The notes beneath the pieces were generated by a model. It did not search any database, was not told the origin of the DNA, and was given only the letters and a program-made list of their open reading frames with translations. DNA of 64,000 nt, taken from positions 62,001 to 126,000 of the forward strand of contig JAIEMQ010000015.1 of NCBI GenBank assembly GCA_019752015.1. Reading direction: 5' to 3'. The translations under genes were made by a program, and so were the position numbers. This stretch comes from Cyanobacteriota bacterium. Its GTDB lineage: Bacteria; Acidobacteriota; Vicinamibacteria; Vicinamibacterales; UBA2999. Positions 45,653 through 52,038 of the stretch are shown one piece after another (position 1 is the first letter of the stretch; each line of letters starts with the position of its first letter).

Positions 45653-46396
45653 ATGGGAACGAAAGAACGCCAGGATCGCGAGCGCCAGGCCGTCACGGCC
45701 TCCATCCTCAGCGCCGCGCGCGACCTGTTCATTGCCGAAGGCTATCAAAGCGTCTCCATCCGCAAGATCGCCGAACGGATCGAGTACAGCCCCGCCGCCA
45801 TCTACAGCTATTACCCAAGCAAGGACGACATTTTCCTGGCGCTGGCGGCCGAAGGCTTCCACCTGCTCGATGCCAAGGTGCAGGCGGCCATGAAGACCGG
45901 CGATCCGCTCGAGAACGTGCGCGGGTGCTGGTGGGCCTTCTATGAATTCTCACAGGAGCAGCCGGCCTACTTCCAGTTGATGTTCGTGGACCAGTCGGTC
46001 CCGCGCATCACGCAGCAGTGGGAAGGCTTCGAGTGCCTGCAGCAGATGCTCACCAACGCGGTCACCGCGATCCAGAAGGCGATCGACGCCGGCGCGTTTC
46101 CCCCGACGCTGAGTCCCAATGCGGCGATGCACATGCTGTGGGCGTCGTTGATCGGTCCGGCAGTCGTCGGCTTGCGCCATCGACTCGCCAGCGGCGAGGA
46201 CTACGACGCGCTCGCGCGCGACGTGCTCAACGCCTGTATTGCCGGCCTGCAGGCCGGAGTCACTACTACGTTCGTGTCGTGCAAGTGCCCTGATGACCCT
46301 TCGACCTTGCTCAGGGTCACCCCGAGCCTGTCGAGGGGTGAAGGAATCGCGGGAGCCCCTGTTCCCGCTGGAGTGCGCAGTCATGAGTCGGAATAA
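45653..46396 (+). CDS. TetR/AcrR-family transcriptional regulator
   Basis: The ATG at 45653 gives 247 residues. The TetR helix-turn-helix is at about residues 12-58: ILSAARDLFIAEGYQSVSIR, then KIAERIEYSPAAIYSYYPSK. A ligand-binding helical domain follows (WHG/AcrR-type). Residues after about 215 (PSTLLRVTPSLSRGEG) come from a palindromic repeat inserted in the gene end and are probably a non-functional tail. The gene overlaps the RND adaptor by 14 bp, so repressor and pump are coexpressed; operator-like repeats lie upstream. Ligands are likely hydrophobic drugs or toxic metabolites. GTG 45623 is an alternative start. Confidence 0.9.
   Translation: MGTKERQDRERQAVTASILSAARDLFIAEGYQSVSIRKIAERIEYSPAAIYSYYPSKDDIFLALAAEGFHLLDAKVQAAMKTGDPLENVRGCWWAFYEFSQEQPAYFQLMFVDQSVPRITQQWEGFECLQQMLTNAVTAIQKAIDAGAFPPTLSPNAAMHMLWASLIGPAVVGLRHRLASGEDYDALARDVLNACIAGLQAGVTTTFVSCKCPDDPSTLLRVTPSLSRGEGIAGAPVPAGVRSHESE
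46297..46344. repeat. Palindromic repeat in the 3' end of the TetR gene
   Basis: The sequence runs CCCTTCGACCTTGCTCAGGG, then CACC and CGAGCCTGTCGAGGGG, giving two imperfectly complementary halves with TCGA and GCTC cores. It is the same type as the element in FabZ (21319-21368) and is translated into the TetR C-terminal tail. Confidence 0.7.
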
Positions 46397-47543
46397 TCGT
46401 CAGTTCGCGGTTCTTGGTTTTGCCATCATCCTCAGCTCGTCCCTGATCCTCCCGGCGTGCGGCGGCTCGTCCACCACGGCGGAAGCCGCGCCGGAGACCA
46501 CCGCGCCGGAAGCCACGATCGTTGATGTTCCGGTCGCGAAGGCGTCGGTCGGCGCGATCGAATCCACTCTGGAGATTTCCGGAACGCTGGCGCCGCGCAG
46601 CCGCGTGGCGGTGAAGCCGAAGCTGCCCGGCACGATCGATCGCATCCTCGTCGACATCGGCGACGCCGTGTCGATGGGCCAGACAATCGCGACGATCGAT
46701 CGCCGCGAGATCGATGCGCAGGTCGATGCGTCGGTGGCCGCGGTCGCTGTCGCCAAGGCCGCGCTCGACACCGCCGAAGCCGGTCTCGCGAGCGCGGTGC
46801 TCGAGCACGATCGCGCGAAGAATCTGTTCGAGAAGGGCGCTCTGCCCCGCCAGCGGCTCGATGCGGCGGCGACGCAGCATCGCGCCGGCGTCGCGCAGCG
46901 CGATCTCGCCACGGCGAATCTCGCGCAGGCTAATGCGGCGCTGCGGCGTGCCAGGGAAGTGCAGAGCAATTCGACGGTGACGTCGCCGGTCAACGGCTTC
47001 GTCGTCGAGCGCAACTACGACGCGGGATCGACGCCCGGCGACAAGCCAATCGTCGTCGTCGCTGATCTGCGTGAGATGAAGCTCGAAGCGGGCGTCTCGG
47101 AGCTCGAAGCGGGCCGCCTGCGCGTGGGGATGAAGGCCAGCGTCTCGGTCCAGGCGAAGCCGGGGATGACCTTCCCGGGCCAGCTTGCCGCGATCGCTCC
47201 AGAAGTGGACGAGCGCAATCGCCACTTCAAGATCGACGTGCGTGTGCCGAATGACGGCCGCACGCTGTTGTCCGGCATGTATGCGTCCGCTCGCATTGTG
47301 GAAGCGACCAGCACGAACGCGATCCTGATTCCGAAAGAGGCCGTGGCAACGCGCAACGGCAGGCGAATCGTCCAGAAGGTCAATGGCGATGCCGTCTCGA
47401 TCGTCGAAGTCGTCGAAGGCCTCTCCGACGCCACGCGCGTGCAGATCGTCAAGGGTCTTGCCGCCGGCGACACGGTGTTCGCCGATGCGCGACGCGAGCT
47501 TGCCGCCGGCGTCAAGGTCCGCGGCATCGCCGAATCGCGTTAA
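46383..47543 (+). CDS. RND efflux periplasmic adaptor (membrane fusion) lipoprotein
   Basis: This 386-residue HlyD/AcrA-type adaptor has a lipoprotein signal with lipobox ILPAC (Cys26). The order is that of the family: beta-barrel and lipoyl halves (SRVAVKPKLPGTIDRILVDI), a long alpha-hairpin (about 115-200), the second lipoyl half (NSTVTSPVNGFVVERNYDAG), and the barrel and membrane-proximal domains to the end. It links the RND pump to a TolC channel. It lies between tetR and the pump gene, with 31 bp (heptad repeats) before the pump. Confidence 0.93.
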   Translation: MSRNNRQFAVLGFAIILSSSLILPACGGSSTTAEAAPETTAPEATIVDVPVAKASVGAIESTLEISGTLAPRSRVAVKPKLPGTIDRILVDIGDAVSMGQTIATIDRREIDAQVDASVAAVAVAKAALDTAEAGLASAVLEHDRAKNLFEKGALPRQRLDAAATQHRAGVAQRDLATANLAQANAALRRAREVQSNSTVTSPVNGFVVERNYDAGSTPGDKPIVVVADLREMKLEAGVSELEAGRLRVGMKASVSVQAKPGMTFPGQLAAIAPEVDERNRHFKIDVRVPNDGRTLLSGMYASARIVEATSTNAILIPKEAVATRNGRRIVQKVNGDAVSIVEVVEGLSDATRVQIVKGLAAGDTVFADARRELAAGVKVRGIAESR

Positions 47544-47574: not shown

Positions 47575-50500
47575 ATGTGGATATCTGATACATCAATCAA
47601 ACGGCCGGTCTTTGCGACGATGGTGATCGTCAGCTTCATGGTGCTGGGCATCGTGTCGCTGGGACGCCTCGGCATTGATTTGTTTCCGGAGGTGAACTTC
47701 CCCTTCGTGAACATCTCCGTCGTCTATCCCGGCGCCGGACCTGAAGAAGTTGAAACGCTGGTGACGCGCCCCATCGAGGACGCGGTTGCCGGCATCAACG
47801 GCGTGAAGCGCGTCATTTCGACGTCGACCGAAGGCTTCTCGCGCGTCGGCATCGAGCTGCGCCTTGAAATAGATCCGCAGGCGGCCACGGCCGAAGTGCG
47901 CGAGAAGGTCGCCGCGATCCGCGAGCGCCTGCCCGAGCAGATCAAGGACCCGACCATTCAGCGGTTCGACGTGTCGGCGCTGCCGATCTCGACCTACGCG
48001 GTCGGATCGACGAGCCTGCCTTCGGATCGCATCCGCCGCATGGTCGAAGACGATCTGAAGCCGCTGCTCGGCCAGATCGACGGCGTCGCCGCGGTGGAAG
48101 TCAACGGCGGCCAGGTTCGCGAGCTGCAGGTCAATCTCGATCCGCGCCGTCTCGAAGCGCTCAACCTCCCGATTACCGAGGTCGCAGCGAAACTCGCCGC
48201 CGACAACCTGGACGTGCCCGGTGGTCAGGTCCGGCGCGACGGCAAGGCGGTTTCGCTGCGCACCCAGGGGCAGTACAAGACCGCCGCCGAAATCGAAAAC
48301 GTGATCCTGCGCTCGGACGGCGGTTCGACCGTGCGCGTCAAGGACGTTGGCGAAGTCGTCGACGGCTACGAAGATCGCGTGTCGACGACGCGCCTCGATG
48401 GCGCCGACGCGGTGTCGTTCTCGGTGCGCAAGCAGTCGGGCGCGAACACCGTCGACGTGCAGACCCAGATCGACGCCGCGCTCGCCAAGGCGGAGCCGAC
48501 CTTCCCGCAGCTGCAGATCAAGACGGTGCACACCGATGCGGAGGGCATCATCGAAAACGTCGAGGACGTGCGGATGAACATCATCTTCGGCGGCATCATG
48601 GCCGTCCTGGTGGTGTTCGTGTTCATGCGCGACTGGCGCTCGACCGCGATCACCGCGCTGGCGCTGCCGACGTCGGTCATCGCGACGTTCTTCTTCATGT
48701 ATGCGGTCGGCTTCACCATCAACATGATGACGCTGATGGCGTTGTCGCTCGTGATCGGCATCCTGATCGACGACGCGGTGGTGGTGCGCGAGAGCATCTT
48801 CCGCCACATGGAGCAGGGCAAGGATCCGGTGACGGCGGCGCGCGAAGGCACGTCCGAGATCGGTCTCGCCGTGATGGCGACGACGTTCACGATCCTGGCG
48901 GTGTTCCTGCCGGTCGGTTTCATGACCGGCATCGTCGGCCAGTTCTTCAAGTCGTTCGCGCTGACGATCGCGTTCGCGGTGTCGATCTCGCTGCTGGTCG
49001 CGTTCACGCTCGACCCGATGCTGTCGTCGCGCTTCGTCCGGTTCATCCCGGTCGAAGAGCGCATGCGCACGCGGACCGGCCGCTTCATGGAGCGCGTCGG
49101 GCACTTCTACGATCGCATCGACGTGCAGTATCACAAGCTGCTCGGCTGGGCGGTCGAGCATCCGTGGAAGATCGTCGCCATTGCCGCCGTCGTGTTCTTC
49201 GCCAGCCTGTCGACGCTCGGCATGATCGGCACCGAGTTCGTGCCGGCTGAGGATCGCGGCGAGTTCGTCGTCAACATCGAGGCGCCGCCGGGCACCGCGT
49301 TCGAGCAGACCGTGGCGCACGTCGTCGAGATCGAGAAGATCGTGAAGCAGATGCCGGAAGTGCGGCAGATCTTCTCGACCGTCGGCTTCGAAGGCAGCCC
49401 GCTCAAGGCGTCGCTGCGCGTCAAGGCCGGCAAGAAGCACGAGCGCGAGCGCGGGCTCGAAGCGCTGAAGGAAGACATGCGCTCGCGGCTGAAGCAGGTG
49501 CCGCTGCTGAAGATGACGGTGGCCGATCCGGAGTTCATGCAGGGAGCGCCGACGCAGGCGCCGCTCAGCGTGTATCTGCGCGGCGACGACATGAAAGAGC
49601 TGCAGCGCCTGAACGAAGAAGTCGTGGCACGGGTGAAGGCGGTTCCCGGCGCGGTGGACGTCGACAGCACGCTCGAGACCGGCCAGCCTGAAATGGCGGC
49701 GAGCGTCAATCGCGAGCTCGCGGCCGACCTCGGCTTCGACGTCGGCTCGGTCGCCATGCAGCTGCGCGGCATGATCGAAGGCATTGTGCCGACGCGCCTG
49801 CGCGAAGACGACAAGGAGTACGACATCCGCGTTCGTCTCGCGCCCGGGTTCCGCAACGACTTCGAGTCGATCGCGCGGACGCCGCTCTACTCACCGACCG
49901 GAGCGGTCGTGCGCGCGCGCGACATTGTCCGGATGAATCCGGAAGTGGGTCCGGCGGCGATCGAGCGCGAACAGCGCCGCCGCCAGGCCAAGATCAACAT
50001 CGAGCTGTCGGATCGGCCGCTCGGCGATGTCACCGCGGATGTCGGCAAGGTGATGGCGGGCATCACCATGCCGCCGAACTTCGAGTGGGGCTTTGCCGGC
50101 GACGTCGAGATGATGCAGGAGGCCGGCGCGGCGATGGCGCTCGCGCTGATCCTGGCGATGGCGTTCATCTACATCGTGCTCGCGTCGCAGTTCGAGTCGT
50201 TCCTCGAGCCGTTCCTGATCATGACGTCGCTGCCGCTGGCGCTGGTCGGAGCGCTGCTGGCACTGTTGGTGACGGGCCGCCACATCGGCATGCCGGCAAT
50301 GATCGGCGTAGTGATGCTGATGGGCCTGGTGACGAAGAACGCGATCCTGCTCGTCGACCTGACGAATCAATATGTGCGCGAAGGATTGAGCGTGAAGGAC
50401 GCGATCCTCAAGGCCGGCCCGGTCCGGCTGCGGCCGATTCTGATGACGACCATCGCGATGATCCTCGGCATGCTGCCGTCGGCAGTAGGTACGGGTGAAG

Positions 50501-52038
50501 GCAGCGGCTTCCGCTCGCCGATCTCGATTGCGACCATCGGCGGTTTGATCACGTCGACACTGTTGACGCTGGTCGTCGTGCCCGTCACGTACCTGATCCT
50601 CGCCCGCGTCGTCGAGCGCGTGAAGAATTGGCGCTCGGCCAGGATCACCGTGCCGCAGCCGGTTCGCGTGGCTGGCGTCATCTTGCTGGTCGCGGTTCTC
50701 GGCTGGCTGCTCTCGACGACGAGCGCCTTCGCCCAGACTTCGCCGTCACCGGCTTCGCCTTCCACGGCTTCGTCGAGGCAGGCTGCGGAAGGCGCCTTGA
50801 CCCTTACCTTCGAACAGGCTCTGCAGCGCGCGTTGTCGGCGAATGAGGGCCTGAAGGTCGCAAAGGAACGAGTCGTCGAGACGCAGGCGCGCGTGCAGGA
50901 GTCGAAGACCAACTTCCTGCCGCAGGTGAATCTCGGCTACAACTTCACGCCGGCACAGCGCTTCCCGGTGATCACGATCCCGGCGGGCATCTTCGGGCCG
51001 GAGGAGCAGAAGTTCAAGGCCGGCTTCACCCAGAAGAACATCCTGCTGCTCTACGTCAACCAGCCGATTTACACCGGCGGCCGGTTGAACAACGCCTACG
51101 GCATCACGACCTCGTCGCTCGATGCGTCGAAGCTCGAGCTCGAACGGACGCGACAGGAGATCGAATACCGGGTCGTGGAAACGTTCTACGCGGCGCTGAT
51201 GAACAAGCGCGGCGTGGCGGTGGCCGACGAACAGATCGCGCTGGCGGCGAAGCAACTGGAGCTCGCCAAGGCGCGGTTCGAGGTTGGCACGGTGGCGCGC
51301 CTCGACGTGCTGCAGGCGGCAGTCGAACTGGCGAATGCCAAGGCGCGCCGCATCCAGGCCAGGGCGCAGGTCGATACGTCGATGCAGGCGCTGCGCTCCG
51401 TCCTGGCGCTGCCGCAAACGCAGGCGCTCGATCTGAATGGTTCGCTCGACGAGCTGGTGATCGGACCTGCTCGCGAGGAGCTCGACAGGAACCTGCCGTC
51501 TCGTCCTGACCTGCAGGCGTTCGCGGCGCGTCGGCATGCCGCCGAGTACGCGTCCAACCTCGCCGCCAGCGAGTGGAAGCCGCGCCTCGCCTTCGCCGGC
51601 ACCATGCAGTACCAGCAGAACAACGTCGGCTCGCTGCTGGGCCGCGACAGCCAGAGCTACTCGCTCGGCATCCAGTTGAACGTGCCGCTGTTCTCCGCTC
51701 CGGGCGGTGCAGCGCGCCGCGCGGTGGCGCAGTCGCAGATGCGGCAGGCCGAACACGGCCTGCGGTTCGCGACCGACACCGCGCGGCTCGAGCTCGAATC
51801 GGCGTGGACCTCGCTCGAAGCGTCGGCGGAAGTAGTGACGACGCAGGAGAAGGCGCTGGAGCTGGCGCGCGAGAGCGTGTCGATCGCGCAGGTGTCGTAC
51901 GAGAACGGCGTGATCACGTCGGCCGAGCTCAACGACGCCCAGGTGCGGCTGCTGCAGACCGAGTGGCTGCTAATGCAGGCGAAATACGCCCGGATCACCG
52001 CCGCGGCGCGCGCCAAGGTGGCCGCGGGTATCTCGTAA
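47575..52038 (+). CDS. RND efflux pump fused to a TolC-family outer-membrane factor
   Basis: One uninterrupted 1487-codon frame encodes two proteins. Residues 1 to about 1025 are a complete AcrB/MdtBC-type RND transporter: MWISDTSIKRPVFATMVIV at the start, both periplasmic halves, transmembrane motif GILIDDAVVVRESIFRHMEQ with the proton-relay aspartates, and MLMGLVTKNAILLVDL. Residues 1032-1053 (GVILLVAVLGWLLSTTSAFA, then Q) look like a signal peptide with an AFA-Q cleavage site. Residues about 1075-1487 are a TolC-like channel with its two internal repeats (LTFEQALQRALSANEGLKVA; VNQPIYTGGRLNNAYG; VPLFSAPGGAARRAVA). Because RND proteins end in the cytoplasm, this extra segment could export the TolC part. 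Cleavage is inferred. Confidence 0.93.
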   Translation: MWISDTSIKRPVFATMVIVSFMVLGIVSLGRLGIDLFPEVNFPFVNISVVYPGAGPEEVETLVTRPIEDAVAGINGVKRVISTSTEGFSRVGIELRLEIDPQAATAEVREKVAAIRERLPEQIKDPTIQRFDVSALPISTYAVGSTSLPSDRIRRMVEDDLKPLLGQIDGVAAVEVNGGQVRELQVNLDPRRLEALNLPITEVAAKLAADNLDVPGGQVRRDGKAVSLRTQGQYKTAAEIENVILRSDGGSTVRVKDVGEVVDGYEDRVSTTRLDGADAVSFSVRKQSGANTVDVQTQIDAALAKAEPTFPQLQIKTVHTDAEGIIENVEDVRMNIIFGGIMAVLVVFVFMRDWRSTAITALALPTSVIATFFFMYAVGFTINMMTLMALSLVIGILIDDAVVVRESIFRHMEQGKDPVTAAREGTSEIGLAVMATTFTILAVFLPVGFMTGIVGQFFKSFALTIAFAVSISLLVAFTLDPMLSSRFVRFIPVEERMRTRTGRFMERVGHFYDRIDVQYHKLLGWAVEHPWKIVAIAAVVFFASLSTLGMIGTEFVPAEDRGEFVVNIEAPPGTAFEQTVAHVVEIEKIVKQMPEVRQIFSTVGFEGSPLKASLRVKAGKKHERERGLEALKEDMRSRLKQVPLLKMTVADPEFMQGAPTQAPLSVYLRGDDMKELQRLNEEVVARVKAVPGAVDVDSTLETGQPEMAASVNRELAADLGFDVGSVAMQLRGMIEGIVPTRLREDDKEYDIRVRLAPGFRNDFESIARTPLYSPTGAVVRARDIVRMNPEVGPAAIEREQRRRQAKINIELSDRPLGDVTADVGKVMAGITMPPNFEWGFAGDVEMMQEAGAAMALALILAMAFIYIVLASQFESFLEPFLIMTSLPLALVGALLALLVTGRHIGMPAMIGVVMLMGLVTKNAILLVDLTNQYVREGLSVKDAILKAGPVRLRPILMTTIAMILGMLPSAVGTGEGSGFRSPISIATIGGLITSTLLTLVVVPVTYLILARVVERVKNWRSARITVPQPVRVAGVILLVAVLGWLLSTTSAFAQTSPSPASPSTASSRQAAEGALTLTFEQALQRALSANEGLKVAKERVVETQARVQESKTNFLPQVNLGYNFTPAQRFPVITIPAGIFGPEEQKFKAGFTQKNILLLYVNQPIYTGGRLNNAYGITTSSLDASKLELERTRQEIEYRVVETFYAALMNKRGVAVADEQIALAAKQLELAKARFEVGTVARLDVLQAAVELANAKARRIQARAQVDTSMQALRSVLALPQTQALDLNGSLDELVIGPAREELDRNLPSRPDLQAFAARRHAAEYASNLAASEWKPRLAFAGTMQYQQNNVGSLLGRDSQSYSLGIQLNVPLFSAPGGAARRAVAQSQMRQAEHGLRFATDTARLELESAWTSLEASAEVVTTQEKALELARESVSIAQVSYENGVITSAELNDAQVRLLQTEWLLMQAKYARITAAARAKVAAGIS

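Follow-up and report, generated by a model that had tools for sequence, protein, structure and literature searches.

A pump and a channel in one reading frame

In well-studied RND pumps, the pump, the adaptor and the channel are separate proteins, and TolC-like channels are often common to several pumps. The window studied here (the whole stretch of 64,000 nucleotides that was analysed) contains a gene in which a pump and a channel share one frame, which raises the question of how a single gene might provide products for two membranes. The frame (47575-52038, + strand) runs from ATG to TAA over 1487 codons without interruption, and its translation begins with a complete RND permease, which is followed by a basic stretch, by a hydrophobic segment with AFA|Q at its end, by a linker and finally by a complete TolC-type channel. 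The initial annotation had described an AcrB-type pump, a hydrophobic segment and a TolC-type channel in this one frame, and the open reading frame, Pfam and AlphaFold/Foldseek agree with that description. Together with the orthologues reported below, they identify an RND::OMF fusion gene.

The pump half (47575-50610, +; residues 1-1012) matched ACR_tran (PF00873) over its full length (residues 3-1009; 895.1 bits, cut-off 28). The motifs ILIDDAVV at 396 and VTKNAILL at 919, matched by eye, provide the Asp-Asp and Lys of what we take, from AcrB, to be the roles and positions of the proton relay. None of the NCBIfam RND subfamily cut-offs was reached by the window protein, RND_permease_2 being the best (835.1 of 1250 bits). 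MdtB (9lyq) was the best solved match of the pump half, and no solved chain covered both halves among the best 60 of 101 structure matches. AcrB-type RND permeases have a cytoplasmic C-terminus, from which it follows, by homology, that the RND half in the window should have 12 helices and end in the cytoplasm.

The pump half is followed by a basic n-region (50611-50667, +; residues 1013-1031) with a net charge of +5 before the core, a hydrophobic core VAGVILLVAVLGWLL (50668-50712, +; residues 1032-1046; hydropathy 3.26) and a c-region STTSAFA (50713-50733, +; residues 1047-1053). The predicted cut is A1053|Q1054, so that the Q1054 codon (50734-50736, +) would encode the first residue after it. 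The linker (50734-50802, +; residues 1054-1076) is variable among orthologues.

The channel half (50803-52035, +; residues 1077-1487) was recognized by two OEP (PF02321) stretches from residue 1079 on, the better one at 1079-1276 (178.8 bits for the protein), and by its predicted structure; it was below the cut-off of the NCBIfam TolC model TIGR01844 (169.5 of 225.15 bits). An AlphaFold2 model of residues 985-1487, based on a 20-row alignment, had a mean pLDDT of 80.2 and a pTM of 0.67, with helices and strands in the order of TolC and with low confidence for the junction and linker blocks. When the modelled channel was compared with the PDB by Foldseek, ranks 1-38 were all OMF channels, such as TolC, TOprJ1, CmeC, CusC and OprM (E 1.6e-19 to 3.9e-15, TM-score 0.62-0.69 by query, 16-20% identity).

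Upstream of the fusion gene lies a periplasmic adaptor (MFP) gene (46383-47543, +; TIGR01730, 189.4 bits, cut-off 94.9), whose likely start, by eye, is ATG 46383 and whose product carries a lipobox-like LILPAC. A TetR-type regulator gene (45653-46396, +; PF00440) precedes it, with ATG 45653 as the likely start by eye and GTG 45623 as a possible one.

Conservation of the fused frame

We looked for the same fusion in 60 related genomes, as the initial annotation had suggested, and found an orthologue in 24 of them (own genome included), at 63-100% identity. Of the 37 genomes in the window's taxonomic family, 23 have it, as does one genome (G037) from another family of the order; the protein family of the window gene is hereafter called family A. 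Among the congeners, six of eight carry the orthologue, and none was found in G002 and G006, the latter being 85% complete. The junction is crossed in frame by 22 of the 24 orthologues, and the other two (G030 and G015) end earlier at contig ends. Full length was reached in 18 of the 24; contig ends cut five (G007, G024, G027, G030 and G015), and the frame of the G019 orthologue is broken in the RND half. G030, G027 and G015 had been candidates for split genes and were dropped because their contigs end there. A further locus (L078) begins at a contig start, and the bases before its junction do not match an RND end. By organism label, 25 of 29 loci belong to Acidobacteria or members of the phylum, one of them labelled Vicinamibacterales (L084, same protein as L017); the rest are two labelled Acidimicrobiia (L062 and L076), which we take for mislabelled MAGs, and two distant ones from Armatimonadetes and Caldithrix.

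Nine pairs were used to compute dN/dS, which was 0.08-0.19 for the RND half and 0.08-0.33 for the channel. Between the window gene and six orthologues, the values were 0.13-0.19 (RND half), 0.17-0.33 (channel) and 0.32-0.81 (signal region), and the value for the linker, which rests on few codons, was above that of the signal region. Three further pairs gave 0.08-0.10 and 0.08-0.13 for the RND half and the channel, respectively. Judged from these nine pairs, purifying selection is acting on both halves.

A sequencing or assembly error, or a stop codon lost in one strain and without meaning, could also produce such a frame. The genome is a draft of 82 contigs, and frames are broken elsewhere in two family-A orthologues (L031, in the RND half near residue 231, and L087, in the channel half), either by sequencing error or by decay. 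However, the 22 orthologues that cross the junction in frame come from separate assemblies and none has a stop there, their identity extends from 63 to 100%, and both halves appear to be under purifying selection. The in-frame junction in separate assemblies leads us to reject an artefact for the family, and we give this explanation almost no probability. The initial annotation had named two observations as fatal to its proposal, raw reads with a frameshift or stop between the halves, or relatives that always have two genes. In the assemblies compared, all 22 junctions are free of stops, and fused orthologues exist.

Features of the junction

The family-A junctions were aligned in 22 rows, including the window protein and two copies from G017. 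Relative to the predicted cut, every row has A at -3 and A or G at -1, while the core varies, and Gln occupies +1 in 16 of the 22. The +1 Gln recalls the Q-rule of Bacteroidetes; a crude scan of the window for signal peptides gave 11 candidates, two of which have Q at +1, and the part of PMC5837995 consulted on this question has no occurrence of 'Acidobacteria'. Linker length ranges from 8 to 50 residues, with 25 in the window and 8 in three orthologues.

For comparison, we assembled a set of 42 fused proteins, all distinct, from four families (24 from A, 6 from B, 3 from C and 9 from D). In 33 of the 42 junctions, an exact A-x-A lies no more than 12 residues from the core; among 420 other hydrophobic segments taken from these RND halves, 48 have one. 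A looser cut-site motif, found in 42/42 junctions and 345/420 controls, does not discriminate. Ahead of the core, the net charge is +3.7 on average, and it is zero or negative in three proteins (L034, L037 and L110). In 30 intact unfused RND proteins (6 of 36 rows were dropped, being cut at contig ends or, in one case, L141), the tails are 9-37 residues long and contain no comparable hydrophobic segment, their best hydropathy being 1.17 versus at least 2.08 in the 42 fused proteins. The window protein has the pattern of a type I signal peptide, namely a basic n-region, a hydrophobic core and an A-x-A-type site. Core and c-region together span ~22 residues, which is long for a signal peptide, and could remain as a 13th helix.

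Relatives with separate genes

A second RND family, retrieved with L033 as the query, includes both states. L033, L034, L035, L109, L110 and L111 are fused, whereas in L112-L122, whose RND parts show 63-71% identity, each of the three components has its own gene, the order being adaptor, pump, channel. We examined ten separate pairs, nine from this family (two of its eleven separate relatives, in G087 and G238, were left out, and L143 and L115 are near copies) and one from family D (L136). In eight of the ten, the channel start codon overlaps the pump stop and is preceded, at 11-14 bases, by an SD-like site. The separate channels start with a hydrophobic core (2.15-3.36 by hydropathy) in the position that the internal segment occupies in fused proteins, and in five of the ten an exact A-x-A comes after it. 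At L136:4964-5029, the pump and channel genes even share a frame; one TAG separates them, with ATG immediately after it.

One start rule was applied to both groups, which asks for a start codon, together with an SD-like 4-mer, in the 45 codons that lead up to the core. All ten separate genes qualify, versus 4 of the 42 fused genes. With a look-back of 25 codons the numbers are 4/10 and 4/42, and the contrast is smaller because many of the separate signal peptides are longer. The window gene is among the four fused ones, by a GTG codon (V1026; 50650-50652, +) with AGGA upstream, the sole SD-backed internal start candidate in this gene, which is not conserved; in the four genes such starts sit at different places. 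In ten of the 42 fused genes, the 25 codons that precede the core include neither ATG nor GTG nor TTG. By this contrast in start codons, the fused state looks like one in which the separate start was lost and the signal peptide was kept.

A close separate relative of the window's own family was not found. A model of the channel half, run against 396 genomes of the phylum, gave 12 matches with E <= 2.4e-193, of which 11 are frames of 1477-1514 aa and one is a frame of 554 aa at a contig end; a gap then extends to 7.5e-79, from where 45 separate channels follow (frames of 417-671 aa). Around those separate channels, 11 of 12 loci fetched have the adaptor gene directly downstream of the channel, so their gene order is unlike that of the fused gene. 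We therefore infer the step from separate genes in the window's family from what is seen in other families.

A proposed route from one precursor to two membranes

It is most likely, at a probability of about 0.83, that the gene encodes one precursor of pump and channel that is cut by signal peptidase I. The RND half would insert in the inner membrane and end in the cytoplasm. As RND permeases end there and a charge of +5 precedes the core, the next hydrophobic segment should be set for export; it would act as a signal peptide, enter the Sec route and export the channel half. Signal peptidase I, to which the constancy of A-x-(A/G) points as the cutter, would cut at about A1053|Q1054. The pump would then remain in the inner membrane and the freed channel would take the usual route to the outer membrane; the adaptor, which has a gene of its own just upstream, would link the two. 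Pump and channel would be made 1:1, which is the ratio in an RND3-MFP6-OMF3 complex. Such a gene may have originated by the joining of a pump gene, in one frame, with the channel gene next to it downstream, whose signal peptide was kept. What the data show are the frame, the two domains, the fold of the channel, the conservation and the relatives with separate genes; we infer topology, export, cleavage, assembly and the benefit of a 1:1 output.

RND pumps are trimers. Passages of PMC5404916 describe a channel trimer and an adaptor hexamer in the complex, and a 1:1 output would fit these numbers. According to passages of PMC4754349, pump and channel of MexAB-OprM are without contact and the membranes are 23 nm apart, with 7 nm for MexB, a gap of about 6 nm and 10 nm for OprM; the channel chain begins at the belt half-way along the channel, as stated in a passage of PMC8277102. 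From these MexAB-OprM dimensions we estimate that an uncut chain must bridge ~18 nm, and that 8 and 25 residues reach ~3 and ~9 nm, respectively.

It is by this distance that an uncut chain through both membranes, in which the segment would form a 13th helix and the linker a tether, may be judged. In length, the segment would suffice for a membrane helix, and family-A linkers at their longest (44 and 50 residues) would come near the needed distance if fully stretched; against this, the 8-residue linkers of three orthologues and the 25-residue linker in the window are too short for the gap, which makes cutting likelier than an uncut chain, and the constancy of A-x-(A/G) would have no reason. 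We consider an uncut chain unlikely. Production of the channel, or some of it, from an internal start codon, with the read-through product being minor or useless, would agree with GTG 50650 and its upstream AGGA, as well as with the separate relatives, whose channels begin in this way and mostly overlap the pump stop. However, the scarcity and scatter of SD-backed starts (4/42 fused genes, at different places), the ten fused genes with no start codon near the core and the maintenance of the frame in all 22 orthologues that reach the junction make such a start quite improbable. The halves might also be parted by a protease other than signal peptidase I, but the constant feature is a site of the signal-peptidase type after a hydrophobic core and the linker is not conserved, and we find this very improbable.

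Cleavage by signal peptidase I is thus the reading that we prefer. The initial annotation had already taken the segment for an internal signal peptide, and this gains strength from the A-x-(A/G) that is conserved in 22 of 22 rows, from the separate channel genes in close relatives of other fused pumps, which have their own start codon and signal peptide at the same place (signal peptides by eye and hydropathy), from the finding that fused genes share no conserved internal start (4/42 versus 10/10 separate genes) and from tethers that in most members are too short for an uncut two-membrane span; cleavage would be its predicted consequence.

Comparison with known systems

As in pumps of the AcrAB-TolC and MexAB-OprM type, there is an adaptor gene beside a complete RND permease in the window, as well as a complete TolC-type channel. 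Unlike in those systems, the pump and the channel share a frame, in which a signal-like segment lies between them. The precursor FbcH (cytochrome b/c1; Bradyrhizobium and others) is cut at an internal signal sequence. The window gene resembles it in that one gene would encode two subunits of a membrane complex, and it has what marks an FbcH-type polyprotein, i.e., one frame, two complete proteins and an internal signal-like segment between them. Both FbcH products stay at the inner membrane, whereas the window gene would send one product to the outer membrane. A passage of PMC12456017 gives fbcH as 'cytochrome b/c1 subunit'. The separate operons of Acidobacteriota (L112-L122 and L136) have the same three parts in the same order, with the channel directly downstream, but as two genes for pump and channel. 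The initial annotation stated that ordinary operons keep these genes separate; in this phylum, the fusion is no one-off.

Databases hold RND-OMF (ACR_tran+OEP) fused proteins with the same domain order, such as CusA-CusC-like proteins of Bacteroidota. In L149, the sole Bacteroidota record that we looked at, pump and channel genes are separate. Laboratory RND-MFP fusions, named in a passage of PMC4754349, likewise join pump parts covalently, but they are man-made and concern another pair. A literature search of titles and abstract openings, with preprints and most subscription papers outside its range, found no natural RND-OMF fusion. The parts are ordinary; the arrangement, by the titles and abstract openings searched, seems to be new.

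If the proposed route is correct, one precursor would yield one product per membrane, and stoichiometry and partner choice would be fixed at translation; it would also place an internal signal peptide after a protein of 12 helices, which would be rare in bacteria. The 1:1 ratio may be the reason for which the fusion has been kept. Since fused and separate relatives occur in one family (G231 fused, G209 separate), the effect of fusion on a tripartite pump is testable.

Recurrence of the fusion in the phylum

The window's own genome contains a second RND-channel fusion (L004:1501-5961, on contig G000:C34) with 28% identity to the window protein and a junction IIFALAIAAPALA|Q of the A-x-A type; its pump half is above the RND_permease_1 cut-off (1286.2 of 1250). 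This genome (5.9 Mb) also has 19 matches to the window protein, 27 OEP repeat matches and 12 matches to the CusA/CzcA model.

We reconstructed a quick maximum-likelihood tree of RND sequences (39 fused and 31 unfused), leaving out eight contig-cut or broken rows and counting L141 as unfused. Fused and unfused labels change 8 times on this tree, 7 of the changes being forced by well-supported branches, versus 23 when the labels are shuffled; because the program warns of long branches (L003, L141, L007 and others) and the rows were picked by likeness to fused queries, these changes describe the sample, and gains are not separable from losses. Family A forms one clade in which all 21 rows are fused. 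Family D (L129 and others) has channels of ~550 residues, and a search with it gave 30 RND frames, 6 fused (L175 among them) and 24 separate, 18 of which have a channel frame downstream in the locus. RND-channel fusion thus seems, from these sequences, to have arisen several times in the phylum.

We tentatively suggest, as a possibility that we would not yet call probable, that pump-channel polyproteins are a recurrent and convergent design of Acidobacteriota, in which pump genes repeatedly take in a downstream channel gene together with the signal peptide that it encodes. The reason would be that synthesis of both proteins in a single translation event, at a single Sec site, fixes the 3:3 ratio, brings the two together early and reserves the channel for its pump, while the adaptor, of which twice as much is needed, would mostly stay separate.

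In tblastn searches of plasmid records with the window protein and L004, a single place covered at least 80% of the query in 13 and 2 records, respectively, among the best 40 and 25 of at least 5000 records. Of these, H1, H2 and H16 consist of two pieces each, annotated as separate genes in H1 and H2 and unannotated in H16; fusions may be present among the other plasmid records. No channel appeared among the 60 matches listed (of at least 5000 records) for a CusA query, because that query has no channel.

Two other RND frames continue past the permease. The + strand frame of 1592 aa in L152 (Caldithrix MAG, G427:C190) contains an RND permease, further hydrophobic segments and, by eye, an ABC-ATPase-like end; it had been a candidate for a channel fusion and was rejected because it continues into this ABC-ATPase-like sequence. 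In L141:3363-7541 (G193:C117), an RND permease and an adaptor (MFP) are in one frame with a lipobox-like joint LLIAGLTVTGAAC, which resembles an internal lipoprotein signal; an in-frame ATG lies before it, by which an internal start would be possible.
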